64,000 bases of DNA from Synechococcus sp. CBW1107 (GTDB lineage: Bacteria > Cyanobacteriota > Cyanobacteriia > PCC-6307 > Cyanobiaceae): assembly GCF_015841355.1 (NCBI RefSeq), contig NZ_CP064908.1:1860001-1924000 (forward strand). The letters are read 5' to 3'. The notes beneath the pieces were generated by a model. It did no database searches and was not told where the DNA came from. It worked only from the letters and a program-made list of their open reading frames with translations. Below are positions 44,753-59,455 of this stretch, one piece after another. Position numbers and translations under genes: made by a program. Numbering within the stretch: position 1 is the first letter of the stretch; each line of letters begins with the position of its first letter.

Positions 44753-45403
44753 GTGGGAAAGCAGATTTTTGATTGGTCAGCTTCAGGCACGGTATCACCT
44801 CGAACGTTTGCTTGGCTGAGCTGTCTTGCGCTTGCCGGATGGATGTTCAGTGGCTTTACGGCTGTGGCCCAATCGCTGCAAACCACCCAGACGTCCACCA
44901 TTGGCTCGGTCGTGAACTACGACAACAACTGGGCTCAGACCTTCTCTGTAACGGGTGGGGAGCTCACCACAACCAATGGTTCTGCACAGATCCAGCCCTT
45001 CGCCAAAGTGGAAGGCTCGGATCACCTGAGATTTCCGAACTCGGGTACAGCCGAGTTCAAGGCGTCGGTGACGAACCTCAGCGACGAGGGAGGCTACACC
45101 AGTGGCAATGCCCAAATTAGCGGACTATCCATTAACAGTGTGGTATTGAATCCTTCGAGCCAAAACGGCGTTCCTGCGATCGTGATTCTCACAAGCAGCC
45201 CAAACGTGGGGGCTGGCTTGCAATCACCCTGCATCGAAGGCACGATAGCTGACAGCAGTTGTCCCACCGCCACCAGCCCCACGCCTTTGGCTGAAAGTGT
45301 GCCCACAGGCGCCAGCATCATCGGCGACAACATCGGCACTGAGAGCATTCAGGTTACCGGCACGCAGAGCACTTCCATCACTAATTCACTCACCGTGTTC
45401 TGA
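44753..45403 (+). CDS. exported protein A of a four-gene unknown operon
   Basis: A 216-residue protein with a signal peptide (hydrophobic about 20-40, ending SGFTAVAQS). The mature part is Ser/Thr/Asn-rich with many predicted beta strands and one Cys pair (SPCIEGT, DSSCPT). The C-terminal segment TGASIIGDNIG through ITNSLTVF ends in Phe. The same layout, GASI..EN.G....TG....NSLT.F, and an earlier VVLN.SS..G element recur in the minus-strand protein at 53580-54197, so the two are paralogues. The start is a GTG; no stronger start is seen. No known family was recognised. The next gene overlaps its stop (TGATG). Confidence 0.72.
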   Translation: MGKQIFDWSASGTVSPRTFAWLSCLALAGWMFSGFTAVAQSLQTTQTSTIGSVVNYDNNWAQTFSVTGGELTTTNGSAQIQPFAKVEGSDHLRFPNSGTAEFKASVTNLSDEGGYTSGNAQISGLSINSVVLNPSSQNGVPAIVILTSSPNVGAGLQSPCIEGTIADSSCPTATSPTPLAESVPTGASIIGDNIGTESIQVTGTQSTSITNSLTVF

Positions 45404-45954
45404 TGAGACGCCGCAGGCTCCAGCTACACAAATCCCAGGCACGCGTCCTGTTTCAGAGAATGGGCCTCTGCCTGATGGGGCTGCTTCCGCTGGCCTGCCT
45501 GCCTGCCGCCTTCGCTCAGAGTGCCACAGTCACGGACGTGCGGGTCACCGGCGTGAATGCCAGCTTCGCCAATGGGGGGGGCTTCACGATTGTCAGTGAT
45601 GGCAGCCTCTCCTATGGCGGCCCCCTCAACGCGATCCGTTCATCCGATCCCCCCAGCCTGCGCATCGTGCTGAACGGAGAGGAGCTGCTCAATGGCGTGC
45701 CTGCTCCCGTGGCCGAAGCGCTTCCCCTGGGCACCGTGCGCTCGAATGTACTGAGCCCCGAACTGCAGGATGCGAAGCTGAATCTGGATCAATCACCGGC
45801 GGCGGTGGTGCTCGGCATCGGCGGCACGGTAGCCACCTACACGGCGGCTGGGGCTACGGTCCAGACGCAACGAATTGAATCAGTGGGGGGTCAAGCATTG
45901 AGCATCTTCCCCGATCTGCTGCCTAGTGTGTTCAACCGTGGGGTGCTGCGATGA
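45403..45954 (+). CDS. exported protein B of the unknown operon
   Basis: A 183-residue protein with a twin-basic N-terminus (MRRRRLQLHK) and a signal sequence ending LPAAFAQS (about residue 40). The mature region is Gly/Ser/Ala-rich with likely beta strands (TVTDVRVTGVNASFANGGGF, AAVVLGIGGTVATYTAAG). No cysteines and no known domain were found. It is coupled by overlap to genes on both sides (TGATG before, ATGA after). Confidence 0.68.
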   Translation: MRRRRLQLHKSQARVLFQRMGLCLMGLLPLACLPAAFAQSATVTDVRVTGVNASFANGGGFTIVSDGSLSYGGPLNAIRSSDPPSLRIVLNGEELLNGVPAPVAEALPLGTVRSNVLSPELQDAKLNLDQSPAAVVLGIGGTVATYTAAGATVQTQRIESVGGQALSIFPDLLPSVFNRGVLR

Positions 45955-46430
45955 CCCAGGTTAAACGTTCGTTTCAGCTGGCCGGCAGCCTGCTTTTGCT
46001 GGCTGTCTCCTGCTGGCCGAGCAATGCCGCTGCCCAGATCACCGTGGGGTATCGCAATCCGATCTTCGTGAATCAGAGCCGCACGCGCGAACAGCGCCAA
46101 GGTGTACGGACCACTCGGCGCTTTGAGGTGTCTGGCATCAATGTCAAGCCGCTGGACGGCAGTTTGATCTACGACGAAGACACCATCTGGACGATCTCGG
46201 AACCTGGTAAGCCGTTCTCGCTCACCGTGCTGGATCAGAATCCACTGGTAGAAACCCGTCAGACCTCGATTCAGGCGGAAACCTCCCAGGCCGCTCGCAC
46301 GGAGCGGGTTTTTGTGCAGGTCACCGGCCCGGCGGCGGAAGCGCTGCGATCGCCCTTTGAGAATCAGCAGCGCCAAGAGGATCTGCTGCTTGGAGTTCCT
46401 CCCAGCCTGACCAGCGTCTTCGGCCCATGA
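45951..46430 (+). CDS. exported protein C of the unknown operon
   Basis: A 159-residue protein with a clear signal peptide (AGSLLLLAVSCWPSNAAAQ, cleavage near residue 28). The mature part begins ITVGYRNPIF and contains charged and Thr-rich stretches (SRTREQRQGVRTTRRFEVSG, VETRQTSIQAETSQAARTERVF). The C-terminus is PPSLTSVFGP. No known family. It overlaps the preceding and following genes by 4 bp. Confidence 0.68.
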   Translation: MTQVKRSFQLAGSLLLLAVSCWPSNAAAQITVGYRNPIFVNQSRTREQRQGVRTTRRFEVSGINVKPLDGSLIYDEDTIWTISEPGKPFSLTVLDQNPLVETRQTSIQAETSQAARTERVFVQVTGPAAEALRSPFENQQRQEDLLLGVPPSLTSVFGP

Positions 46431-46843
46431 TCCACTCCACGTTTTGCCGCCGGCTGCCGCCACAAGACCGGCCTCGCCTTCGCGGTTCTCTGCTGCTGTC
46501 TGGCCTGCTGGCCCTTCTGCCTGCGCTGTTGATCTTGCCAGCGTGGGGGCAGCGGGTTCCCAATATCACCGGCTGGAGTTTCAACTTTTCCTCCGGTCGT
46601 GGCGGCCAGAACCGCAGTACGGCCGGAGCACTGAGTAGCAGCGATGGTGTGCAGGTGGTGGTGGAGCCGGGCAACACCGAACTGATCCAACGTCCTGATG
46701 GCACGTTCGCCTATCGCATTCTGGATCCCAATCAAAAGTTCGGCTCTGCCTTGCAATCCCGAACCAGCAGTGAACAATCTCGAAGCAACACTTTTGGCAT
46801 TAGTGAATTCAGAGATTTTGGCTATTCGGTGTTCATTCCTTAA
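46427..46843 (+). CDS. exported protein D of the unknown operon
   Basis: A 138-residue protein with an N-terminal signal segment (LLLSGLLALLPALLILPAWGQ). The mature part is rich in Ser, Gly, Asn and Arg (WSFNFSSGRGGQNRSTAG) and ends DFGYSVFIP. No cysteine in the mature part and no recognised family. It is the last gene of the four. The downstream 98 bp lead to the convergent frameshifted methyltransferase. Confidence 0.65.
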   Translation: MIHSTFCRRLPPQDRPRLRGSLLLSGLLALLPALLILPAWGQRVPNITGWSFNFSSGRGGQNRSTAGALSSSDGVQVVVEPGNTELIQRPDGTFAYRILDPNQKFGSALQSRTSSEQSRSNTFGISEFRDFGYSVFIP

Positions 46844-46941
46844 GTCTAGAGGAGTTGTCTCAGGGATTAAGCCAATCCCAGCAGGCCGCTGAGCAGGGCT
46901 CCGAAAAGCCACAGGATCGCATATCGCAAGCCTGCAGATCG

Positions 46942-47833
46942 TTATCTCGTGGCATTCTCAACAAAGTCAGGAGCGAGCGTTGTTCCGTTTTTCATATCAT
47001 GGTGAGCCAGGCAGTAATAGGAAAGATCTGGACTGCCATAAACAGCAGCAAGCACGCTTAGCTTGAGTAGTTGCTGAGCACCTAGATTCTGGATAGCCTG
47101 GATATGGCGGATGAACACTGCGTCTGACCAGATATGTTGAGAAGGCAGATTGGGATCATTGTTGATTACTATGGGCTTGAGCGCCCTGCCTGCGAGGCCA
47201 AGAAACTTATGGAACATCAATTGATGCTGATCCAGGAATGTGCAGACATCACCAAAAAGAGGCTGCCCCACATAATGTGAAATGAACTCCACCTCACAGA
47301 CGAGTGCCAAAACGCTTTTCAGCGCTTCTATTCCACCTTTAAACACGTCTAGCTCTGCACCTTGAATATCAATCTTGATAAAGTCGGTTTCGGATATGCC
47401 ATTCTCGCGAGCAAAATAATCCATGCTGACTGTATCGATCACGCCCTTGCGCTTGAGATAGGCAACCTCAAAGTTATTGTAGAGGCTGATTAAGGCTTGG
47501 TTCGGCTCGTACAAGCTGCAGCACATAGGGTGATTGGTTATATAGAAGTCGCGACGCTCGTTCCTTTCGCCAAGTGCGTTCGGATAATACCTCACACCGG
47601 CCTTCGCTTTTGCATTCATCTGGTTGCAGAGATCTTCATCGACTTCAAAGCCGATAATCTGAGAGCCTGGGAAAAGATCTAGCAGTGGGTAGAATGGCTC
47701 AGGGTTTCCTTCGATCTGTAAGGCTCCGAAAGGCTCCGATTTCCATTATCGTGAACTTTAGCTCAGGGCTTTCGGCAAGAATGATGGACGCCAGTTGCGC
47801 AAGCATGGTTTTGAATTTCTTTCCTGTCGTCAT
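46942..47833 (-). pseudogene. FkbM-family methyltransferase broken by a 10-bp duplication
   Basis: On the minus strand an ATG at 47833 opens a frame beginning MTTGKKFKTMLAQLASIILA and running to MEIGAF before going out of frame and stopping. The rest of the gene continues in another frame (PEPFYPLLDLFPGSQIIGFE, then the 225-codon frame ending at 46942 with SMDYFARENGISETDFIKID and QGAELDVFKGGIEAL). At 47721-47740 the 10-mer AGGCTCCGAA/AGGCTCCGAT is repeated in tandem. Deleting one copy joins the frames as MEIGALQIEGNPEPFYPLLD. FkbM enzymes methylate sugar hydroxyls. It may be a recent mutation or an assembly error. Confidence 0.78.
47721..47740. repeat. 10-bp tandem duplication causing the frameshift
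   Basis: AGGCTCCGAA is followed directly by AGGCTCCGAT. Ten bases shift the frame by one. The length difference exactly explains the broken methyltransferase frame. Confidence 0.7.
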
Positions 47834-48234
47834 TTTACTGGGGTGCTGACTATGTGGGGTCCAAACGTACCGACGAGTTGGCGCCGCTCTGGAAGGCCAA
47901 CAGAATCGTTCCCTCCGGGCTCAGAGGCCGAGATGGATCAATGCGTGCTTCGTCCATTCTTTGCAACAGATTGAATCTGGCTTGCAGCCTTAGAGCACGA
48001 CCAGATCAGCCCTCACTGCCACAGCGGTGAGCGTTCATTGGTCAACGCTGGCAGGCTGCGCTGCTGCGATACAGCCCCTGAGCGGGTAAAGTTGGTTTCG
48101 TGAGGTGGCTGTACCAGCCAGCCAGTGGATCAATTGAAATTCTTGTTTGATCACTGGGCGTGTTCAGCGCTCCGCCACCAAGCTTTACCTTTCGCCGGGT
48201 TGACAACCAGTCTCATGAGCACAGCGGCTACGCC
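47834..48234. other. 400-bp gap without a gene
   Basis: Only short open frames of about 40 codons are seen, with no motif. Base composition is mixed, and no RNA gene or complete mobile element was recognised. Confidence 0.4.
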
Positions 48235-49146
48235 ATGAACACCATCCTTTTTGCTGGATATCCTGGATCGGGGAACAGCCAGCTCAGCGCCGCCCTTTGC
48301 TTGGCGGCAGAATTGCATGGCGGTGGTCAGCCTGATTCTGGTTCTGCCAGGCTGCATGAGATTTACAGGCTCAAAAGCGACCTACAGGCTCCAGCGCAGA
48401 AGATACCTGAGCCCAATCCATGCCTGCCTGGTGAATGTGTCAATATCATGACGCAAGAACCATTGCGATACAAGCAACTGGATCAGATCTATTTCGGATC
48501 TGTATCCAGGATTGTGCTCACACTCAGCGATCCTTTTGATGCGCTGTTGTGTGCACTTCTGTTTGTGCGCTATTCAGCAAGTATCGCCACAACTGATCAG
48601 CTGCCGCCAGCGATTACGGGATCCCTGGAAAGCCTGCTACCAGGCTATGCCTATGCGCAGGATCGGCAGGCTTTCCTGGAGCAGTTCACATTGGAATCAC
48701 TGCGCGATGCCGGCATTCTCGATCGCTGCCTGCTCTCATTTTCTAATTCAGGCACCGTGATTCCCTTCTTTCATGCCATGGCTGGCCCCTGGGCCTTCTA
48801 TGGCTCCAGTTATGATGTGAGTGGTAGGCCGGTGTTGAAGCTGCGCCAAGATCATTTGGTGAAAGCCGCCAGCGACGGCTTTGCGGCCATCGCCAGCCCC
48901 TTAAGCGAGTTTCTAGGCTGCGATCAGGCTCTGCTGCTCGATGCATTGCGCCTGCAGAAGCAGCAGCAAGGGCAGGCCAGCGAGGCTCAGGCCCAGGTTT
49001 CTGCCTATCAGCCGGGAACTCAGGCATTTGCCCGCTATTTCTCCAGGCCTGCTTTGCACAGCTTCGCCAATCAATACTATTCCTGCCTGATCAGCCTTGG
49101 CTATGAGGATCTGGTGGATGCAATCTTTAGCCCTTACAAGCTATGA
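48235..49146 (+). CDS. P-loop/sulfotransferase-like protein of unknown function
   Basis: A protein of 303 residues from the ATG at 48235 (a longer frame to 48160 exists). The N-terminus ILFAGYPGSGNSQLSAALCLAAEL resembles the 5'-phosphosulfate loop of sulfotransferases (usually YPKSGTTW/L), but with Ser for Lys. Later, RIVLTLSDPFDALLCALLFVRY resembles the IVRDPRDxxxS element in a degenerate form. A sulfotransferase fold is plausible and activity is uncertain. It lies next to FkbM and glycosyltransferase genes, suggesting surface sugar or protein modification. Confidence 0.55.
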   Translation: MNTILFAGYPGSGNSQLSAALCLAAELHGGGQPDSGSARLHEIYRLKSDLQAPAQKIPEPNPCLPGECVNIMTQEPLRYKQLDQIYFGSVSRIVLTLSDPFDALLCALLFVRYSASIATTDQLPPAITGSLESLLPGYAYAQDRQAFLEQFTLESLRDAGILDRCLLSFSNSGTVIPFFHAMAGPWAFYGSSYDVSGRPVLKLRQDHLVKAASDGFAAIASPLSEFLGCDQALLLDALRLQKQQQGQASEAQAQVSAYQPGTQAFARYFSRPALHSFANQYYSCLISLGYEDLVDAIFSPYKL

Positions 49147-49538
49147 ACCGGTAATCAGGATGCAGAATACTTATTATCGCCGATCTTCATCACGATAACC
49201 TCATTTACGATTTGATTCCAACGCAGGATCACTCAGTAATTTCGCCCAGGTAGTGGGCATCATGGTTCCCGAATCCGATTCATTGATTTCTAGATTGTTG
49301 CAGCGGTCAATGCCAGCCGACATGCTTTGAAGAAAGCGGTGGACGCATTAGCTAGTTGTCAATTTGCCCGCGCCGCCTATCGCTGTACATCCCCTGTGAG
49401 CAATGAGTGTGACGTCCGGCTACGACAACCAGACCAATTGCAAAATTTGCTCTGCAGGGCTGCTCATGCAATGCATTTTCTGCCGAATACATAATCAGAA
49501 TTCAAGCTGAGGAAGTCAAGGGTTCAGCAAAGCAGTCG
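49147..49538. other. 390-bp AT-richer gap with a possible IS66-end relic
   Basis: No supported gene. At about 49503-49540 the sequence TCAAGCTG, then GTCAAGGGTTCAGCA, then CGATGTT recurs in the same order just outside the IS66-type transposase at about 56283-56318. This may be an IS remnant. A 20-codon antisense frame near 49205-49270 is not supportable. Confidence 0.4.
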
Positions 49539-52500
49539 ATGTTGCAGCGCCCCCCGCCGCCTCTGAGACTTTTTGGGCCAAATCCACTGATAGAATCGTC
49601 TGAAGCCAAAGCAGTTCGAGTCATGCCAAGCCAGATGTCAACCATCGCAGTTGAGCTGGTAGATGGCATCAAGGTCGTCGTGCCTAATTCGCTCGAGCAC
49701 ATCACATCTTATGTGCTTCAGGAGCAGGGAGACTGGTTTGAAGATGAAATCAAGTTTCTTCGTGGCCTTATTGAGCCTGGCGATACCGTCGTGGATGTCG
49801 GAGCCAACTATGGAGTCTACGCCCTCTCTTTGGCAAAGAAAGTAGGTCCATCTGGGCAGGTGTGGGCCTTTGAGCCGGCCGCAAATACAGCAGGGTTGCT
49901 CGCAGAAAGTGCATCAGCCAATGCCTTGAATTGGCTTAAGGTGGTGCAAAAGGCGCTATCAAATCGCGAAGGTATTGCCTGGCTGCAGACGCCAGGGCAG
50001 TCTGAACTGAATAGTCTGGCCAGCCTGGATTCCCAAAGCGCTGCCTCGGTGGTAGGGCCTGGAGAGGATGTTCAAGTGTCCACACTTGACGCCTGCCTGC
50101 AGCGATTTAAATGGGCTAATGTGGATCTGCTCAAGATTGACGCTGAAGGAGAGGAGGAACGCATCCTGCTCGGAGGAGTGCGCTTCTTTCAGGTCCTTTC
50201 CCCGTTGGTGATGTTCGAGGTGAAGGCGGGAATAGAGCTGCATTTGGACCTAGTCGCCAGATTTGAAGAGATTGGCTACCAGTGTTTTTATCTTGTTCCT
50301 GGACTAGATGTTCTGCTTCCCTTTGATCCCGCTGATGGCGTGGATGGTTATCTGCTGAATTTATTCGCAGCCAAACCGGAGCGGATCAAGCGTCTGGCTG
50401 CCGCGGGAAAACTTCTAGAACATGCAGAGAGAGTCCAAGTCTATGAAAAACCTGATTATGAATCGTGGATTTGTGATGTAAAAAATCAACCTTATGTTCG
50501 TAGCCTTTCACTTCAATGGGATGGAACAGCTGCACAGCCAGAACAAAGCGCCATTCGTCAAGCATTAGCTTTCTGGAGAGCCTCTCAGGATTGCAGTTCG
50601 CCGATTGCTAGGCGTTATGTAGCCCTTGCGGAAAGCTTTGCTTTGCTGAAGAAAGAGTGCCAACCAGAATGCCCTAGTACCCGCTGGGCAAGCCTTGCAA
50701 GAGTGGCGATGGCTCTTGGCATGCGCCAAGTCGCAATGCAGGCGGTGAACATGCTGCTCCATGAGGTTCAGTTTGGCGGGGATGTTCTTCACGATGAACC
50801 TTTCCTCTGCCCCGACCCACATTTTGACACTGTGGATACCGAAAATAGGATTGATGACTGGCTTGAAGCTGCTTCGTTGTCGGCAGCCGAAAGATTTGGC
50901 AGTTACTCAGGATTTTTTTCTGGTGCATCAGCAGTCCCGAGACTTGAGAGACTGGCTTTTCTCGGTTTTGGCAAGGAGGTTATACAAAGGCGCATCGATC
51001 TAGTAAGCAAACGTTTTGGCACTGGACTGATGTCTGCTGCTGCTGCTGCTGCTACTGCTGCTGATCGGCTGCCTTCACGGCAGGCCACGCAACCAAACAC
51101 TGCTTCAGCCACGCTGCAACAGAACAAGCAGCAGGCCATGGAGCTGATCGGGGCCGAGCGCTACGGCGAAGCCCAGCAGATCTATGAGCAGCTGCTGGCC
51201 TCCGGCCAGGCCGATGCCCAGGTGTGCACCAACCTGGCCGCCCTGCACCAGATCGCTGGCCGCTCGGCTGAATCGATTCCGCTGCTGGAGCGAGCGATCG
51301 CCCTGCAGCCCGCCTATCCCGAGGCCCTGCTCAACCTCGGCAATGCGCTGCAGTCAGGCGGCCGCTCCGAGGAGGCGATCACCGCCTTCCGCCAGGCAAT
51401 CGCCCTCAATGCCGCCCTGCCCGAAGCCCACACCGGCCTGGGCGTGGCCCTACAAGACCGCGGCCAGCTGCAGGAGGCGATCGACCACCACCGTGAGGCG
51501 CTGCGGCTCAGGCCGGCCTACGCCGCCGCCTGGTCGAACCTGGGTGTGGCCCTGCGCAGCCGCGGTGATTGCCGCCAGGAGGCGATCGCCGCCTTCCGCG
51601 AGGCGCTGCGCCTCAAGCCGGCCTATCCCGAAGCCCTCTCCAACCTCGGCATCGCCCTGCTGGCCGATGGCCAGAGCGAGGCGGGGCTCGCCAGCCAGCG
51701 CCAGGCGATCGCGCTCAACCCCAGCCTGCCGCAACCCCATCTGCATCTGGGCGATGGGCTGCGCGAGCTCCATCGCCTGCCGGAGGCGATCACGGCATAC
51801 CGCACGGCTATTCAGTGCAAGCCCGATGAGGCCGGCGCCTACGCCGGCCTGGCTCTGGCCCTGCAGGAGCTCGGTGATCTGGAGCAGGGCCTGCTGGTGG
51901 CGGAGCAGGGGCTGGCGATCCGGCCCGACTGGCTGCCGATCCACTGGAGCAGGATCAAGATTCTCGACGAGCTGCGCCGGCCAGAAGAGGCGCTTGAGGC
52001 GAGCGAGGACCTGCTGCATCTGCAGCCCGACAATGCCCGGGGCCACCTTGCCCAGGCCGCTGTGCTCGAGACCCTGAAGCGCTACGCGGAAGCCCATGCG
52101 GCCCTTGATCAAGCGCTGCAGCTTGATCCCAGCTTGTCTGAAGCCCATTACTGCCGCGGCTGGATGCGGGCGGGGGAGGGTGAGACCCAGGCCGCGATCG
52201 ACGCCTACAGGCAGGCGCTGGAGCTGAAGCCTGGTTCCTATGAGGCCGGCTGTGCGCTGTTTTTCACCGAATTGTTTCTCCGCGGCGAGCAGGGCGAGCG
52301 CATCCGCGCCGATGCGGAACAGTTCTGGGCCCGCTTCCCAGCCGCTGCCGTGGCCCCCTTCCCGCCACGGGCGGCGCTGGCCGCCCAGGCCCTGGCCGCT
52401 GCCGCACCGATTCGGCTGCTGCTGCTCTCGGGCGACATCGGCGACCATGCCGTGAGCTGCTTCCTTGAGCCGTTGTTGCGTGGCCTCGATCGCCGTCGTT

Positions 52501-53498
52501 TTCAGCTGGTGCTGGCCCTCAGCCACCGCCGCCGCGAAGCCCGCGCCCGAGACCTGGAGCAGCTGGCGGATGAGGTGGTGGATCTCACTGGCCTGGGGGA
52601 GGCGGAAGCGGTGGCGCTGCTGCGCCGCCAGGGCTGTGCCGTGCTGATGGAGACCAGCAGCTGGACAGCCCACAACCGGCTGCCGGTGCTGCGCCACCGG
52701 GTGGCGCCGGTGCAGTGCCACTACGTGGGTTTCTGCGGCAGCACCGGCCTGGCCAGCATGGATTACATGATCGGTGATGCGGTGCTGACGCCGCCCCAGC
52801 TGCAGAACCAGTTCACGGAACGGCTCTGGAGCCTGCCCCGCTGCTGGTCCACCTATGCCCCCACCTTCACGCCGCCACCCCTGACTGACCGCCTGGAAGG
52901 CGCGCCGCTCACCTTCGGATCCTTCAACAATCTGCTCAAACTCACCGACCGCTGCGCCGACTTCTGGGCGGCGGCCCTGCAGGCGGTGCCGGCGGCCCAG
53001 ATGCTGATCAAAGACGGCAAAGCCCTTGAGCCCTCCGTGCAGAGCCGTGTGCGGCGGCAGTTGCAGAGCCGTGGCGTGGCGCCCGAGCGGCTCAGTTTCA
53101 TCGGCCATGTGGCCGACTGGCATGCCCACATGGACCTTTACAACCGGGTGGACATCGCCTTCGACACCACACCGATGACCAGTGCCACCACCGGCTTCGA
53201 GGCGCTCTGCATGGGTGTGCCGCTCCTGGCGATCCAGAGCGACTGGATGGGCGGCCGCATGAGCTCCTCCGCCCTCACCGCCCTGGGCTGCGCAGACTGG
53301 ATCAGCCGTGAGCCTGCGGCCTTTGCGGCCCAGGCCGCTGAGCTGGCCGCCAGCAGCGAGCGTGTGCCCAACCAGCTCAAGCGGCAGTTGCATCGGCAGG
53401 TGCGCGCCTCTGAACTCTGGGATGGCGCCTCCCTCTGCCGTGCCCTGGAGCAGGCCTTCGAGCAGATGCTTCAGCAGTGCGCCAGCGGCGGCAGCTGA
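49539..53498 (+). CDS. FkbM methyltransferase-TPR-O-GlcNAc transferase (GT41) fusion
   Basis: A 1319-residue three-part protein. Residues about 50-265 are an FkbM-type SAM methyltransferase (DVGANYGVYALSLAKKVG, VWAFEPAANTAGLL, VDLLKIDAEGEEERILLGG). Residues about 270-495 show no known domain. An Ala-rich linker coded by CTG/GCT repeats (about 500-508) precedes TPR repeats (about 525-910) and a GT41 catalytic domain (about 930-1319: HRVAPVQCHYVGFCGSTGL, FGSFNNLLKLTDRCADFWA, AFDTTPMTSATTGFEALCMGVPLL). GT41 enzymes add sugars to Ser/Thr of proteins. The start could be the ATG at 49623. The first part is AT-richer than the TPR-GT41 part, as if two genes had fused. Confidence 0.88.
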   Translation: MLQRPPPPLRLFGPNPLIESSEAKAVRVMPSQMSTIAVELVDGIKVVVPNSLEHITSYVLQEQGDWFEDEIKFLRGLIEPGDTVVDVGANYGVYALSLAKKVGPSGQVWAFEPAANTAGLLAESASANALNWLKVVQKALSNREGIAWLQTPGQSELNSLASLDSQSAASVVGPGEDVQVSTLDACLQRFKWANVDLLKIDAEGEEERILLGGVRFFQVLSPLVMFEVKAGIELHLDLVARFEEIGYQCFYLVPGLDVLLPFDPADGVDGYLLNLFAAKPERIKRLAAAGKLLEHAERVQVYEKPDYESWICDVKNQPYVRSLSLQWDGTAAQPEQSAIRQALAFWRASQDCSSPIARRYVALAESFALLKKECQPECPSTRWASLARVAMALGMRQVAMQAVNMLLHEVQFGGDVLHDEPFLCPDPHFDTVDTENRIDDWLEAASLSAAERFGSYSGFFSGASAVPRLERLAFLGFGKEVIQRRIDLVSKRFGTGLMSAAAAAATAADRLPSRQATQPNTASATLQQNKQQAMELIGAERYGEAQQIYEQLLASGQADAQVCTNLAALHQIAGRSAESIPLLERAIALQPAYPEALLNLGNALQSGGRSEEAITAFRQAIALNAALPEAHTGLGVALQDRGQLQEAIDHHREALRLRPAYAAAWSNLGVALRSRGDCRQEAIAAFREALRLKPAYPEALSNLGIALLADGQSEAGLASQRQAIALNPSLPQPHLHLGDGLRELHRLPEAITAYRTAIQCKPDEAGAYAGLALALQELGDLEQGLLVAEQGLAIRPDWLPIHWSRIKILDELRRPEEALEASEDLLHLQPDNARGHLAQAAVLETLKRYAEAHAALDQALQLDPSLSEAHYCRGWMRAGEGETQAAIDAYRQALELKPGSYEAGCALFFTELFLRGEQGERIRADAEQFWARFPAAAVAPFPPRAALAAQALAAAAPIRLLLLSGDIGDHAVSCFLEPLLRGLDRRRFQLVLALSHRRREARARDLEQLADEVVDLTGLGEAEAVALLRRQGCAVLMETSSWTAHNRLPVLRHRVAPVQCHYVGFCGSTGLASMDYMIGDAVLTPPQLQNQFTERLWSLPRCWSTYAPTFTPPPLTDRLEGAPLTFGSFNNLLKLTDRCADFWAAALQAVPAAQMLIKDGKALEPSVQSRVRRQLQSRGVAPERLSFIGHVADWHAHMDLYNRVDIAFDTTPMTSATTGFEALCMGVPLLAIQSDWMGGRMSSSALTALGCADWISREPAAFAAQAAELAASSERVPNQLKRQLHRQVRASELWDGASLCRALEQAFEQMLQQCASGGS
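51034..51063. repeat. CTG trinucleotide repeat coding an Ala linker
   Basis: Six CTG units, one CTA, then three CTG units lie in a row. They are read as GCT/GCA codons giving a poly-Ala linker between the methyltransferase half and the TPR-glycosyltransferase half. Such repeats can change length by slippage without breaking the frame. Confidence 0.75.
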
Positions 53499-53579: not shown

Positions 53580-54197
53580 TCAGAAGGCCGTGAGAGAGTT
53601 GATCACGGTCAGGCTGTCGGTGAAGCTGCCTGTGACGCCGCTGGCGCCTTGATTCTCTGCTGTGATGCTGGCACCAACGACGCCGGTATCGGTACCAGCA
53701 CCGATGACGGTGATGCCCGCAGCCGAGGATTGGTTCAGCACCACAGCCGTAGGGGTGGCGAAGATAATGGACGAGGTAGCGGTGGTGATGCCACCGGTGC
53801 CACCCTGGCCTCCCAAGGGAACGATCGCCGCCTGCACCGCGAACGAAGGGGTTGCCAGTGTGCTACCGGTGTTAGTGGTGGCGCCGAATCCGTTGCGGTC
53901 GAAAGAAGCCGTCAGGGTGGAGGTGCCGGCATTGCCTTCAAGAACCCCAACACCCGTGGCAGACAGGGCGGTGTTAACGGCCGTGACCTGGAAGGGATTG
54001 AGCGAGCTCGGGGTATTGCCGAGCACTTCGATCGACTGGCCGTACTGAAGGTTGTAATCAGCACCAGCCTCGAAAGTCTGGGTGCTGTTGCCGGTGAGGC
54101 TGGGGCCAGCCAGCGCTTCGGACATCATGGAGCCTTGGCCAATGGCGGCAAGGCCTGCGCCGGCAACGGTGAGGCTGAGCTTGAGCTTGGGATTCAT
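53580..54197 (-). CDS. exported Ser/Thr/Gly-rich protein, paralogue of protein A
   Basis: A 205-residue protein from the ATG at 54197 (a longer frame starts at 54227). A signal peptide KLKLSLTVAGAGLAAIGQG precedes a cysteine-free mature chain rich in Ser, Thr, Gly and Ala, predicted all-beta (for example GTSTLTASFDRNGFGATTNT). The C-terminal VGASITAENQGASGVTG to INSLTAF matches the end of the protein at 44753-45403, as does VVLNQSSAAGI. A terminator follows its stop. Many Ser/Thr residues would suit O-glycosylation by the adjacent GT41 enzyme (inference). Confidence 0.75.
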   Translation of the reverse strand: MNPKLKLSLTVAGAGLAAIGQGSMMSEALAGPSLTGNSTQTFEAGADYNLQYGQSIEVLGNTPSSLNPFQVTAVNTALSATGVGVLEGNAGTSTLTASFDRNGFGATTNTGSTLATPSFAVQAAIVPLGGQGGTGGITTATSSIIFATPTAVVLNQSSAAGITVIGAGTDTGVVGASITAENQGASGVTGSFTDSLTVINSLTAF

Positions 54198-54295
54198 TGG
54201 AGTGAACGGCGTGAGAACATGGGCCAAGTGTGGGCCTTAGTGCCGGGTGCAGTTCTAAGCGGAAAAAGGCCCAACCATTGACAGTTTTTGAAGCT

Positions 54296-54756: not shown

Positions 54757-56250
54757 TCAGGGATCGCTCAGCAGTGACGGCATCACCCCATCGCGGTGAT
54801 GGGCGATCCAGGCCTGCTCCAGGAACTCCCAGACATCCCGCCCCTGTTGCCTGAGGGTAGTGGTGACCGTGAGCAGGCGGCTCCGGCAGATCGCACCTTG
54901 GCGGGATTGGACTCCTTGACTGATCTTGCGCTGAATCACCGATTGGCGCAGGGCACGTTCTGCGGCGTTGTTGGTGGGCTCTATTCCCTCGTTCTCCAGG
55001 AAGGTCCACAACCCACCTGTCACCTTCTGGAGCTGCTGGCACGTGCGCACTGTGCTGGCCCAAGGCGTTCGCTCGCCGCGCTGGTAGCCGAGCTCTACTA
55101 CCCGCTGCAGCGTGGTCTCAAAGGTCTGGCGGATCGGCCGGCAGCTTTGCTGCAAGGCGGGCCAGTCAATCTTTCCCTCCTTGTAGCGGTGCCAGTGGCC
55201 AAACAGCTGCTGCTGCAGGCCCAGCAGCTGGGCTCCGAATTCAGCGCTGGCGCCCGGGCGTTCGGCGATGGCCGTCAGGTCGCGGATCAGGTGCGCCCAG
55301 CACAGCTGGCGCTGCTTGGTGGGCAGGTGGTTGTAGGCCGAGAAGCGATCGCTCACCACAATCCCGCCAAAGGCGTTCCCCAGCAGCTCGATGGCAGCGG
55401 TCGTCGATCGACTCAGCCCTTGCACAAATACCGTCACCACGGCGGTGACCATGACCCACTGCCAGCCCCGCTTTCCAGTGGGATTGTTGCCGTCGGCATT
55501 GCCGGTGGGGGCGCCAGTTTCATCTACGTAGGCCACCGGCTGCACGCGGGCAAAAGCAAGGGCCTCCTGCATGGGCTGCTCCAGTGCTGCACTCAAGCGC
55601 TGGCGGACCCGTCCAATCGCGCCGCGGCTCATCTCCACTCCTACCAGCTGCTGGAGCAGGGCCTGGGTCTTGCTGAAACTCAACGGAAAGGCACTGCCCA
55701 GCAGGCCCACCAGTGCACTGAGCCTTGGGCCGTAGTGACTGGCCTCCACATCCGCCGGCAACGAGGCGCAGGTGCTGGTGGAACAGCAGGGGCAGACCAG
55801 GCGATGCAGCCGGTGCTCGATCACCAGCGGGGTAATCGGCGGGATCTCGATCACCTGATGGCGCAGGGGATCGAGATCCTCTCCCTGGAGCAAGGTGCCA
55901 CAGCGGCGGCAGGCATCAGGGTGGTGATCCACCACCTGATCCACCCGCTCGATCGACAGCAGCTCTGGTCCGGATCCGGGATGGCCCTGCTGGCCGCCCC
56001 GCTTGCGGCCACTGCCCTTGCGCCGTTCTGGCGGCTTAAAACCCAGACCATCACTGGAGGGAGGTTTGGATGAGTTGCGAGAGCTGCGTCCGATCCGCTC
56101 ACGCAGGTTTGCCAACTCGGTGGCCAAGGAGGTGAGTTGGCCGCGCAACAGCTCGATCTCCTGCTGCTGGGCGTTGATCAGCGCTCTGACGCTGGCGGGA
56201 GTTTCCAGCCAGTCGGCTTCTGGAATTCCAGCCGGATGTGCGGTCATCAT
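54757..56250 (-). CDS. IS66-family transposase (TnpC)
   Basis: A DDE transposase of about 497 residues. The N-terminus has the leucine-zipper-like segment RALINAQQQEIELLRGQL and the Pro/Arg region RSSRNSSKPPSSDG. A zinc finger is present (CRRCG, CPCCSTSTC). Catalytic residues appear in VAYVDETGAPTGN, IVVSDRFSAYNHLP and EGIEPTNNAAERALRQSV. TnpA and TnpB partners are missing, as in solo-TnpC IS66 members. Terminal inverted repeats could not be identified. The ATG at 56250 is preferred over the TTG at 56286. Confidence 0.88.
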   Translation of the reverse strand: MMTAHPAGIPEADWLETPASVRALINAQQQEIELLRGQLTSLATELANLRERIGRSSRNSSKPPSSDGLGFKPPERRKGSGRKRGGQQGHPGSGPELLSIERVDQVVDHHPDACRRCGTLLQGEDLDPLRHQVIEIPPITPLVIEHRLHRLVCPCCSTSTCASLPADVEASHYGPRLSALVGLLGSAFPLSFSKTQALLQQLVGVEMSRGAIGRVRQRLSAALEQPMQEALAFARVQPVAYVDETGAPTGNADGNNPTGKRGWQWVMVTAVVTVFVQGLSRSTTAAIELLGNAFGGIVVSDRFSAYNHLPTKQRQLCWAHLIRDLTAIAERPGASAEFGAQLLGLQQQLFGHWHRYKEGKIDWPALQQSCRPIRQTFETTLQRVVELGYQRGERTPWASTVRTCQQLQKVTGGLWTFLENEGIEPTNNAAERALRQSVIQRKISQGVQSRQGAICRSRLLTVTTTLRQQGRDVWEFLEQAWIAHHRDGVMPSLLSDP

Positions 56251-56309
56251 AGGCGGGTCTCTACCTGAGATGCAACCGGAAATCAAGCTGTCGTCAAGGG
56301 TTCAGCAGG

Positions 56310-56944: not shown

Positions 56945-57183
56945 TGCCACTTAAAATCTTCATTATTGTTGTTTTTCAAAATTATGCTTTTAAATTACCG
57001 CCTCCTGACTTGTAATTATCGTCAGTTAACGCCCAAGCTGCTCCTGTGCCTGCTGGCTGCTGTGGGTCTGTTCGGATTGTCTTGGCTGACTCCCCGAGCC
57101 AGCCAGGCTCAGAGCGCCAGTGCCAATTCGGCTGCCAATTCCGCCGGTACCACGGTCAACAACCAGAACAATTCCCAGATTAA

Positions 57184-57189
57184 CACCAG
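57184..57189. repeat. target-site duplication, left copy
   Basis: CACCAG directly before the left IS end, matched by the same bases at 58436-58441 after the right end. Confidence 0.75.
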
Positions 57190-58435
57190 GGCACCTCGAA
57201 AAATCGTAAGACCGCTTGATAACGTCCGGATTTAGATTATACTAGGCCATACCGATTACATACTTTCTATGGGCCAGCGAGGTTTCTGGGACGAACAACA
57301 AAGAGTTGCAAAGCTCCAAGAGAAGAAGCCGGTTCTGATCCGTCTCGCAGAATCGATTCCCTGGGAATCTTTCCGCCCTTTGCTTGACAAGGGCTATAGC
57401 CAGGAGCGCAAAAGCAATGCTGGACGCAAGAGAATCGACCCACTGATTCTTTTCAAGATGCTGGTGCTCCAGCAGCTATTTAATTTAAGTGATGAAGAGA
57501 TCGAATTCCAAGTAAATGACCGTCGCTCCTTCGAGGGGTTTGTTGGTCTTGGGGTGATGAATGACATACCAGATGCCACCACAGTCGCCTTCTTCAGAGA
57601 GCGACTGCGCAAGGCGGGAGTTATCGAGGAACTCTTTGAGATGTTTGAGGAATACCTGCGCTCTCAGGGTCTCCAAGCCCGGGGTGGTCAGATCATTGAC
57701 GCGACTCTCGTCCCTGTTCCCAAGCAACGCAATACCCGCGAGGAGAACAAGGAAATCAAAGCCGGAAGGCTGCCAGAGGGCTGGGATGAAAACCTAGACC
57801 GCTTGCAGCAAAAGGATTTAGACGCTCGCTGGACACAAAAGAACGGCCTCAGTTACTACGGTTACAAGAACAGTATTTGCATCGATGTCGACCATGGATT
57901 CATACGCCGATATGCTGTCACTCCTGCCAATATCCACGACAGCCAGATGCTTCCACTTCTGCTTGATCCAGAAAACGAGCATGACTATGTCTGGGCAGAC
58001 TCAGCATATTCCGGCGAATGCTTTGATGCTCTTCTGAGTCTCGGTGGCTTCGAAAGCCTGATCCACGAAAAAGGCGCTCGCAATCATCCGCTTAGCGACG
58101 CAGCCAAGGAATTAAATCGTCTTAAGTCGTCGATCAGAGCTTGTGTCGAGCATGTCTTTGGCTGCATGACCATGTCCATGGGTGGAAAGCTGACAAGAAA
58201 GATTGGGCTAGAAAGGAACGAGGCTTGGTGGGGTCTCAAGAACCTAACATTTAATTTACTGCGCTATCTCCAGCGCTCTGCCCACGTAGTAGTGGTTGCA
58301 TGAGTCACTCATAGAAGTGATACGGTTCAGTGAAACTCGTCAATAGTTGATATAATGCTTTCTTGCGTAGCCGCCTCCATGGCGGCATTTTTATGTCCGC
58401 AAGATTTCCTATTTGTGCTGATTATTCGAGGTGCC
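57190..58435 (+). mobile_element. IS5-family insertion sequence, complete
   Basis: A 1246-bp element with terminal inverted repeats: left end GGCACCTCGAAAAATC, right end (reverse complement) GGCACCTCGAATAATC, 15 of 16 identical. It is flanked by direct repeats CACCAG at 57184-57189 and 58436-58441. Because the base next to each end is G/C, the border could be one base further out with a 4-bp repeat ACCA. It carries one transposase gene and looks intact. Confidence 0.88.
57269..58303 (+). CDS. IS5-family DDE transposase
   Basis: A 344-residue transposase. DDE residues are Asp144 (QIIDATLVPVPK), Asp244 (VWADSAYSGE) and Glu294 (ACVEHVFGCM). The N-terminal domain has RKRIDPLILFKMLVLQQLF and the helix GLGVMNDIPDATTVAFFRER, both typical of IS5. 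The C-terminus has GLERNEAWWGLKNLTFNLLR. No stop or frameshift is seen, so it should be functional. It lies inside the complete element at 57190-58435. Confidence 0.93.
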   Translation: MGQRGFWDEQQRVAKLQEKKPVLIRLAESIPWESFRPLLDKGYSQERKSNAGRKRIDPLILFKMLVLQQLFNLSDEEIEFQVNDRRSFEGFVGLGVMNDIPDATTVAFFRERLRKAGVIEELFEMFEEYLRSQGLQARGGQIIDATLVPVPKQRNTREENKEIKAGRLPEGWDENLDRLQQKDLDARWTQKNGLSYYGYKNSICIDVDHGFIRRYAVTPANIHDSQMLPLLLDPENEHDYVWADSAYSGECFDALLSLGGFESLIHEKGARNHPLSDAAKELNRLKSSIRACVEHVFGCMTMSMGGKLTRKIGLERNEAWWGLKNLTFNLLRYLQRSAHVVVVA

Positions 58436-58441
58436 CACCAG
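58436..58441. repeat. target-site duplication, right copy
   Basis: CACCAG directly after the right IS end. Restoring a single copy restores the host reading frame. Confidence 0.75.
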
Positions 58442-58957
58442 CACATTCTATGGCTTTGGCCCCGGCATCAACTGCCCCACGCCCACCCTCGCCGTTGCCG
58501 GCTTCAGCGGCAACGGCGAGGGCTCCAGTGATGGCGATGTGCTCGGCGCCACAGTCAACAGCAACAACTATGGCGGCATCGTGACGTTCACTTTGCCCAT
58601 CGGCGGTGCGAACGCAGAAATCTGCAAGGAGATCGGCAAGGCTCAGGTTCAGGCCTTGATGGCGAACGTGGCGCGTGCCACCATCGAGGCCAACAAAGTC
58701 CAAGCCGACATCAATCTCGTCACAGCCATCAAGTGCGTGGAACTGATGCGGGTGGCCACCCTCTCTGGTGTCTACGCCGAGATCTGCCGGGGTGTCACAC
58801 CCATCGGCCAGAAACCCCTTCCCCCGACGGCGAGCCAGGCGGCTCCCCTGCCAGGGCAGGCTGGATTGATCAGGCCGATGCCTCCCCGGGCTTCCCCCAC
58901 TCCACTCTCAGCCATCCCCCCTAACCAAACGCTTTCCTCAGCCTCAGAAGGTGCCTG

Positions 58958-59455
58958 ATGAGTCTTGCTTGGTTCAGGAGTCTTCTGCATAGAGAGCGCC
59001 TGTTGCTTCGTTGGCTAGGCCCCAGGCTGCTGCTCCCTGTTTTGCTGTCCACCCCTGCCGTCACCCCTGCCGCCCACGCTTCAACGTTCGAGATCTATTG
59101 CGTCAACAATTCCGATGGCACCTCCAGTTGTGAAGGCTGGGATGGCGGTGAAACTCTGGTCTGCACCCCCAGCAGTGGCGGAACCACCAGCTGCAGCTCC
59201 TCCAGCGGCAGCAGTTTCACCTGCGTGCGAGGGCGTGATGGCACCACCACCTGTGACACCGCCAGTGGCGGGGGACAGCAGCGTGTTGGCACCCGTTGCA
59301 TCCGCACAGGCCAAGGATCAATCAGCTGTGACGCCGATGACCCCCCAGCTCCGGATCTACTTCCTGGGCCCCGGCTGCCCAGCACCGGGCCTGATCTGGA
59401 TCTGCTGATCCCTCGCCTGAACGGAAGTCTGGAGATCCCCAGCCTGTTCCCTTGA
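58958..59455 (+). CDS. exported Cys-rich repeat protein
   Basis: A 165-residue protein with a signal sequence (LLLPVLLSTPAVTPAAHAS, cleavage near residue 41). The mature part has a degenerate repeat of two Cys per about 20 residues with DGT(S/T)SC or GTTSC motifs (CVNNSDGTSSC, CTPSSGGTTSC, CVRGRDGTTTC, CIRTGQGSISC), about four copies. The tail is Pro/Leu-rich and ends SLFP. Disulfide-linked repeats are likely. It overlaps the stop of the IS-split gene and so belonged to the same operon. Confidence 0.72.
   Translation: MSLAWFRSLLHRERLLLRWLGPRLLLPVLLSTPAVTPAAHASTFEIYCVNNSDGTSSCEGWDGGETLVCTPSSGGTTSCSSSSGSSFTCVRGRDGTTTCDTASGGGQQRVGTRCIRTGQGSISCDADDPPAPDLLPGPRLPSTGPDLDLLIPRLNGSLEIPSLFP

Follow-up and report, generated by a model that had tools for sequence, protein, structure and literature searches.

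How a single enzyme came to be encoded by two halves of different base composition is the question raised by an open reading frame (ORF) in the genome of Synechococcus sp. CBW1107. The ORF (49539-53498, forward strand) lies in a 64,000-nucleotide stretch of contig NZ_CP064908.1 (positions 1,860,001-1,924,000), referred to here as the window. The genome, designated G000, is a single contig of 3.2 Mb and holds one full-length copy of the ORF. An uninterrupted frame encodes 1319 amino acids (aa) that include, in order, an FkbM methyltransferase domain, a helical middle domain (MID), an Ala-rich linker, tetratricopeptide repeats (TPRs) and a GT41 glycosyltransferase region; the FkbM-MID part is called the N half and the TPR-GT41 part the C half below. 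In a sequence-only reading, a change in composition at the linker had been taken to suggest that a methyltransferase gene of foreign origin was joined to a resident glycosyltransferase gene. The same reading supposed that one chain could both glycosylate proteins and methylate the sugars, which is plausible.

Composition break and histories of the two halves

As this reading had proposed, the FkbM half is AT-richer and the TPR-GT41 half G+C-rich, the G+C content being ~0.51 upstream and 0.69 downstream of the linker. G+C at third codon positions (GC3) shifts from 0.47 to 0.85 after codon 523 (51108). The log-likelihood gain for this change point is 106.8, as compared with a maximum of 10.4 among 300 codon shuffles and of 16.0 in the other 21 of the 22 non-overlapping window ORFs of at least 300 aa. 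Its 2-unit support interval (51105-51126, forward strand) is also where close similarity to the C half of another genome of the family, G194, begins. The break had been placed at the CTG repeat of the Ala-rich linker (51034-51063, forward strand; 10 copies, 92% match); it does fall at the linker, but the change point lies ~42-63 bp downstream of the repeat, which is missing from the G194 copy.

The AT-rich side was found to be larger than the FkbM half to which it had been assigned. A 4.3-kb patch (46841-51105) with a G+C content of 0.515, as compared with 0.663 in the remaining window, has the linker as its right edge and includes, besides the FkbM half, a broken FkbM gene and a gene at 48160-49146. 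The patch up to 49.5 kb (46.9-49.5 kb) has no counterpart at that site in G194, and comparison of the 46.8-49.5 kb insert with the fetched loci revealed a single short DNA match, to L094 inside an FkbM gene. Further AT-rich areas occur in the window, as judged by 22 of 253 1-kb segments that are below 0.53 and spread over three areas. The N-half counterparts in genomes G113 and G226 are AT-richer (0.53-0.59) than their surroundings (0.636 and 0.677, respectively), and the FkbM half of the window copy looks compositionally foreign.

Such a break could arise without recombination if codon or amino acid constraints differed between the halves, and a TPR-, Ala- and Leu-rich sequence would be expected to raise G+C somewhat. 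However, GC3 itself jumps, the trees of the two halves disagree (see below), and the change points in the fusions of G194 (gain of 8.5, the shuffles reaching up to 9.5), G124 and G211 are not significant. An explanation by constraint alone is therefore very improbable, and codon constraint as the cause of the break was ruled out by the G124 and G211 fusions. An assembly chimera at the CTG repeat, which adjoins the break, is more improbable still, as the frame is open, the architecture matches that of G194 end to end and the genome is one contig. The results for change points and control ORFs, along with the G194 architecture, make an origin of the break in assembly or chance unlikely.

A total of 300 family genomes were searched, the named relatives of the same genus or family being picocyanobacteria of the Synechococcus/Cyanobium group. 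The N half was detected at 1e-20 in 14 genomes and a nearly whole FkbM-MID module in 12. Five of these 12 (G000, G194, G124, G211 and G192) encode FkbM-MID-TPR-GT41 in one frame, while G229, which has the same domain order in two adjoining ORFs with a stop between them, was excluded from the fused count. Three genomes (G113, G148 and G226) encode FkbM-MID-FkbM, the G148 ORF lying at a contig end, and three (G175, G249 and G205) the module alone. A GT41 is fused or present on the fetched stretch in 11 of the 12 module genomes, the contig of G148 ending first.

The break was thus wrongly equated with the birth of the fusion, as the same architecture is found in four more genomes, mostly without a significant break. 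A widespread fusion of uniform composition had itself been named as the outcome that would speak against the sequence-only reading. This applies to G194, G124 and G211 but not to the G192 fusion (L056 14786-18157), in which GC3 falls instead, from 0.81 to 0.58 (gain of 26.5), past aa 293, close to the FkbM/MID border. If a foreign FkbM gene had joined a TPR-GT41 gene already resident in this lineage, the sharpness of the break at the linker and the AT-rich FkbM half would be accounted for. Such an event is nonetheless improbable, given that the fusion occurs at the same place in G194, that three more genomes have the same architecture, and that a close C-half relative is absent from all eight other sampled congeners. 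At E 1e-40, these congeners yielded C-half relatives only in G035 (28% identity) and G124 (39-41%), whereas a relative with 71% identity sits in another genus. The view of the GT41 half as a resident gene of this lineage hence finds little support in sequence comparisons, the most similar of these relatives being outside the genus.

Phylogenetic analysis placed the two halves differently. In the N-module tree (23 rows), G000 grouped with G113 and G148 (100/98) and next with G194 and G226 (100/99), and the clade of G000 and G194 expected from synteny was rejected by the approximately unbiased (AU) test (p-AU 0.033). In the GT41 tree (57 rows), G000 and G194 are sisters (100/100) apart from G124, G211, G192 and G229 (100/99), and unfused GT41s branch between these two fusion classes. 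A single origin of all FkbM-first fusions was rejected for the N half (p 2.7e-5, for a grouping chosen after inspection of the tree), and a single GT41 clade of both fusion classes was rejected as well (p-AU 0.0083). At four-fold degenerate sites, G000 and G194 are identical at 48 of 146 N-half positions, where chance would give 0.25, and at 181 of 314 C-half positions, where it would give 0.33 (difference between halves, Fisher 8.1e-7). N-half agreement between G000 and G148 is 0.42-0.61 by block (chance 0.24-0.28). Five of six other fusion pairs had no significant difference between halves at such sites.

These comparisons establish, at the level of sequence, that the N and C halves of the window copy differ in their histories, with the seam at the linker. 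The proposal of a foreign methyltransferase holds to the extent that the FkbM half is foreign in composition and differs in history from its partner. As to which half moved, composition points to the N half and the comparison with neighbouring genes, given below, to the C half.

Predicted domains and neighbouring exported-protein genes

The FkbM domain (49794-50282, forward strand; aa 86-248) matched Methyltransf_21 (Pfam PF05050) at 3.6e-15, with 56.9 bits against a curated cut-off of 22.7, and NCBIfam TIGR01444 with 89 bits against a curated cut-off of 37.7. DxGANxG, FEP and KxDAEG stretches are kept, and the S-adenosylmethionine (SAM)-binding and DAEG stretches are invariant among 11 relatives. 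An AlphaFold2 model of the FkbM part (predicted local distance difference test score, pLDDT, 82.7) matched SAM methyltransferases over residues 32-281 with Z up to 14.9 in VIA-align, which was applied to the methyltransferase part only. Foldseek matches of the model include 2py6, a solved FkbM structure. By both profile and fold, the N-terminal part is predicted to be an FkbM-family SAM methyltransferase. Since relatives begin ~28 codons downstream of the first ATG, the true start is possibly the ATG at 49623.

The MID (50319-51020, forward strand; aa 261-494) is all-helical, with 12 helices in the model (pLDDT 87.2), and accompanies FkbM in several phyla. No Pfam family matched the window MID, and Foldseek with the MID model returned 0 matches at E 0.001, the best matches (E ~0.1) being partly TPR proteins.

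In the C half, a TPR region (51111-52283, forward strand; aa 525-915), with many Pfam TPRs at ~aa 573-900, precedes the GT41 catalytic region (52284-53495, forward strand; aa 916-1319), which is the order expected of GT41 proteins such as O-GlcNAc transferase (OGT) and SPINDLY. The match to Glyco_transf_41 is 1.2e-27 (96.9 bits against a cut-off of 25), and the half aligned to human OGT chains at 2e-85 across TPR and catalytic pieces using HMMER. In this alignment, D966, H970 and K1134 correspond to conserved human OGT residues, which we take to be the catalytic D554, H558 and K842. With the profile match, the D/H/K residues and the TPR array all present, the C half is a predicted GT41 glycosyltransferase.

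Genes for exported proteins surround the fusion. Four of these (44753, 45403, 45951 and 46427), located upstream at 44753-46843 on the forward strand, encode candidate acceptors. On the reverse strand, 53580-54227 encodes an exported protein (the 53583 product) related to the 44753 product, both having the C-terminal tail NSLT(A/V)F, and two more genes of the cluster (58431 and 58958) are found at 58431-59455 on the forward strand. The arrangement in G194 is the same, with the four upstream genes (36-53% identity), the fusion, the opposite-strand gene (50%) and the two further genes (71% and 44%), all seven flanking the fusion on both sides. As the G194 fusion occupies the same exported-protein cluster, the fusion probably predates the break.

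The exported proteins had no NCBIfam match, and all their Pfam matches were sub-threshold. Relatives of the 45403 protein were found in 4 of 300 family genomes and those of the 48160 protein in 2 of 201, own genome included in each count, and some of the exported genes are present in G199. Given these counts and the occurrence in G101 (fusion absent) and, in part, in G199, the cluster is rare and patchy.

In the AT-rich patch, the minus-strand FkbM gene (46942-47820; ORF 46942-47619 and upstream) has its start in another frame and is apparently broken; it shares ~34% identity with G113's second FkbM. The 48160-49146 gene encodes a 328-aa product that includes a P-loop-like GYPGSGNS stretch and had no Pfam or NCBIfam match; by resemblance, we presume that it may be sulfotransferase-like. 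Further downstream, the 58431 product is without the first 65 residues of its relatives, and an exact match to residues 55-68 of the G194 protein was found at 57146-57187. Hence, a transposase ORF at 57269-58303, presumably of IS5 type, splits the 58431 gene. A second transposase-like ORF in the cluster (54757-56286) is presumably of IS66 type.

The FkbM-MID module and the origin of the fusion

A scan of 84,980 species genomes identified at least 438 relatives of the module, whose hosts include Accumulibacter and further proteobacteria as well as planctomycetes and myxococci, among others. The best 80 of these loci, to which the following counts refer, were examined. A GT41 was found at 33 of the 80 loci, fused at 8 and separate at 25, and a second FkbM was fused at 4 and separate at 6. 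In two of the GT41 fusions FkbM comes first (L070 and L071, regarded as contigs G124:C6 and G211:C128) and in six GT41 comes first (L088, L093, L097, L129, L138 and L140), an order also found in the cyanobacterium G521. Background density was estimated from 20 of the 80 host genomes, in which the Pfam GT41 model gave 131 matches in ~95.7 Mb (summed rounded genome sizes), or at most ~0.015 per 11.2-kb locus. GT41 was present at 8 of the 20 corresponding loci, as detected with a locus model that, unlike the Pfam model, was built from 15 family sequences. Fusion in both orders, together with adjacency, is strong evidence for a shared FkbM-MID/GT41 pathway.

Viral contigs included 71 relatives, mostly of the FkbM part, and among the matches listed none extends into the MID past residue 281, while plasmids had no module match at 1e-10. 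Hence, no phage or plasmid carrier was found. The family also appears to have further GT41 fusion partners, as the long TPR-GT41 proteins of G285 (L065 7551-11909) and G148 (L066 4628-8044) carry unrelated N-terminal extensions, of 400-700 extra residues of other origin.

It is tentatively suggested that FkbM-MID moves as a cassette among picocyanobacteria and other bacteria and changes its C-terminal partner at the linker, forming a combinatorial system that alters the methylated glycan of surface proteins. Its partners might then be two unrelated TPR-GT41 classes, a second FkbM or none, with the window copy keeping the seam of one swap; this part of the proposal is equally tentative.

For the window copy, the account that we somewhat favour combines a mosaic formed by the exchange of one half with cytoplasmic glycosylation like that by FlmG (see below), accompanied by sugar methylation. 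In this account, the ORF encodes a real multidomain enzyme amid exported-protein genes. Recombination at the linker would have exchanged one half of a pre-existing FkbM-MID-TPR-GT41 fusion, and the AT-rich FkbM half would share its ancestry with FkbM-MID-FkbM proteins found elsewhere in the family. The TPR array would bind a substrate protein in the cytoplasm, most likely a neighbouring exported protein, and the GT41 region would move a sugar from a nucleotide sugar onto Ser/Thr. The FkbM domain would O-methylate the sugar before or after transfer, with the substrate still held, and the modified product would then be exported. The MID may position both catalytic units or aid substrate binding.

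Several points count against this account. The activity, sugar and acceptor of the fusion protein rest on inference, and the AU rejection for the N half (0.033) is weak. At four-fold sites of seven neighbouring genes, 146 of 333 positions are identical between G000 and G194; the C half is clearly closer than these genes (p 5.3e-4), and the N half only a little farther apart (p 0.026, the expectations being unequal). As the C half is the clearer outlier, it may be the half that was exchanged. The halves also differ in a control pair with no documented exchange, G211-G192 (p 1.8e-5). These two genomes are placed differently in the N and GT41 trees, with weak support, and the composition of G192 confounds the pair; exchange of halves may be recurrent in the fusion family. 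Finally, the exported genes are present in G101, where the fusion is absent, so these genes do not need it, and the fetched stretches of G124, G211 and G192 include no relatives of the exported genes.

If the GT41 half were the newcomer, the cluster would have been inherited with the FkbM half and the TPR-GT41 part would have given way to a relative of its G194 counterpart, in keeping with the four-fold identities given above for the C half, the neighbouring genes and the N half. We regard this as rather unlikely, because the C half is similar in composition to most of the window and the N half is not. In addition, the G+C content of four-fold sites in the C half is about 0.9 in G000, as compared with 0.5-0.9 by block in G194, and this strong difference indicates that the shared ancestry is not recent.

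The enzyme could also be active on a different target, be it some other protein of the cytoplasm, a secreted protein or a glycan, with the FkbM domain methylating a sugar nucleotide, a polysaccharide or the protein itself. The other fusion-class genomes, which have no exported genes near the fusion, and the fusion-free cluster of G101 make this a possibility of some weight, albeit a doubtful one, as in G194 conserved genes of the exported cluster lie on both sides of the fusion.

Significance and comparison with known systems

If both activities of the favoured account are present, a single chain could write and cap the glycan of a surface protein. The occurrence of the module fused in both orders and beside GT41 in several phyla ties the unannotated helical domain and FkbM enzymes to protein O-glycosylation, and the visible seam provides a dated example of partner change in modular enzymes. 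The points of interest are this seam and the recurring FkbM-MID module; joins of methyltransferase and GT41 are also known in other bacteria. Among the open-licence PMC papers listed by full-text searches, no fusion of FkbM with an O-GlcNAc transferase, no pairing of Methyltransf_21 with Glyco_transf_41 and no cyanobacterial FkbM-GT41 fusion were found.

Proteins that join a GT41 to a methyltransferase domain have been published before. According to the available text of De Maayer and Cowan (2016, PMC4875605), enterobacterial flagellin glycosylation islands encode GT41 glycosyltransferases that include methyltransferase domains, and methylated flagellin glycans are described. These proteins resemble that of the window in having a GT41 and an AdoMet methyltransferase in one chain, adjoined by genes for exported structural proteins, and FkbM genes are sometimes nearby. 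They differ in that the acceptor is flagellin, and neither a module of FkbM and a helical middle domain nor a mosaic seam is described in that text.

FlmG of Caulobacter crescentus is reported, in the part of PMC7591256 available, to bind flagellins via its TPR part and to glycosylate them via its C-terminal part in the cytoplasm prior to export. The window protein shares the TPRs and the C-terminal glycosyltransferase, and cytoplasmic glycosylation is proposed for it by analogy. FlmG, as described there, differs in its length (596 aa), in being without a methyltransferase, in its flagellin acceptor and in its sugar, pseudaminic acid.

Among solved structures, human OGT, plant SPINDLY and XcOGT (PDB 7yea, 7y4i and 2vsn) likewise have TPRs followed by GT41, with the aligned D, H and K retained, but they are without a methyltransferase. 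The FkbM protein of Methylobacillus flagellatus (2py6) has the same SAM methyltransferase fold and family name, with 16% identity and no match to the MID. The same module joined to GT41 is found in the six GT41-first loci listed above and in G521, where the order of the two parts is reversed.

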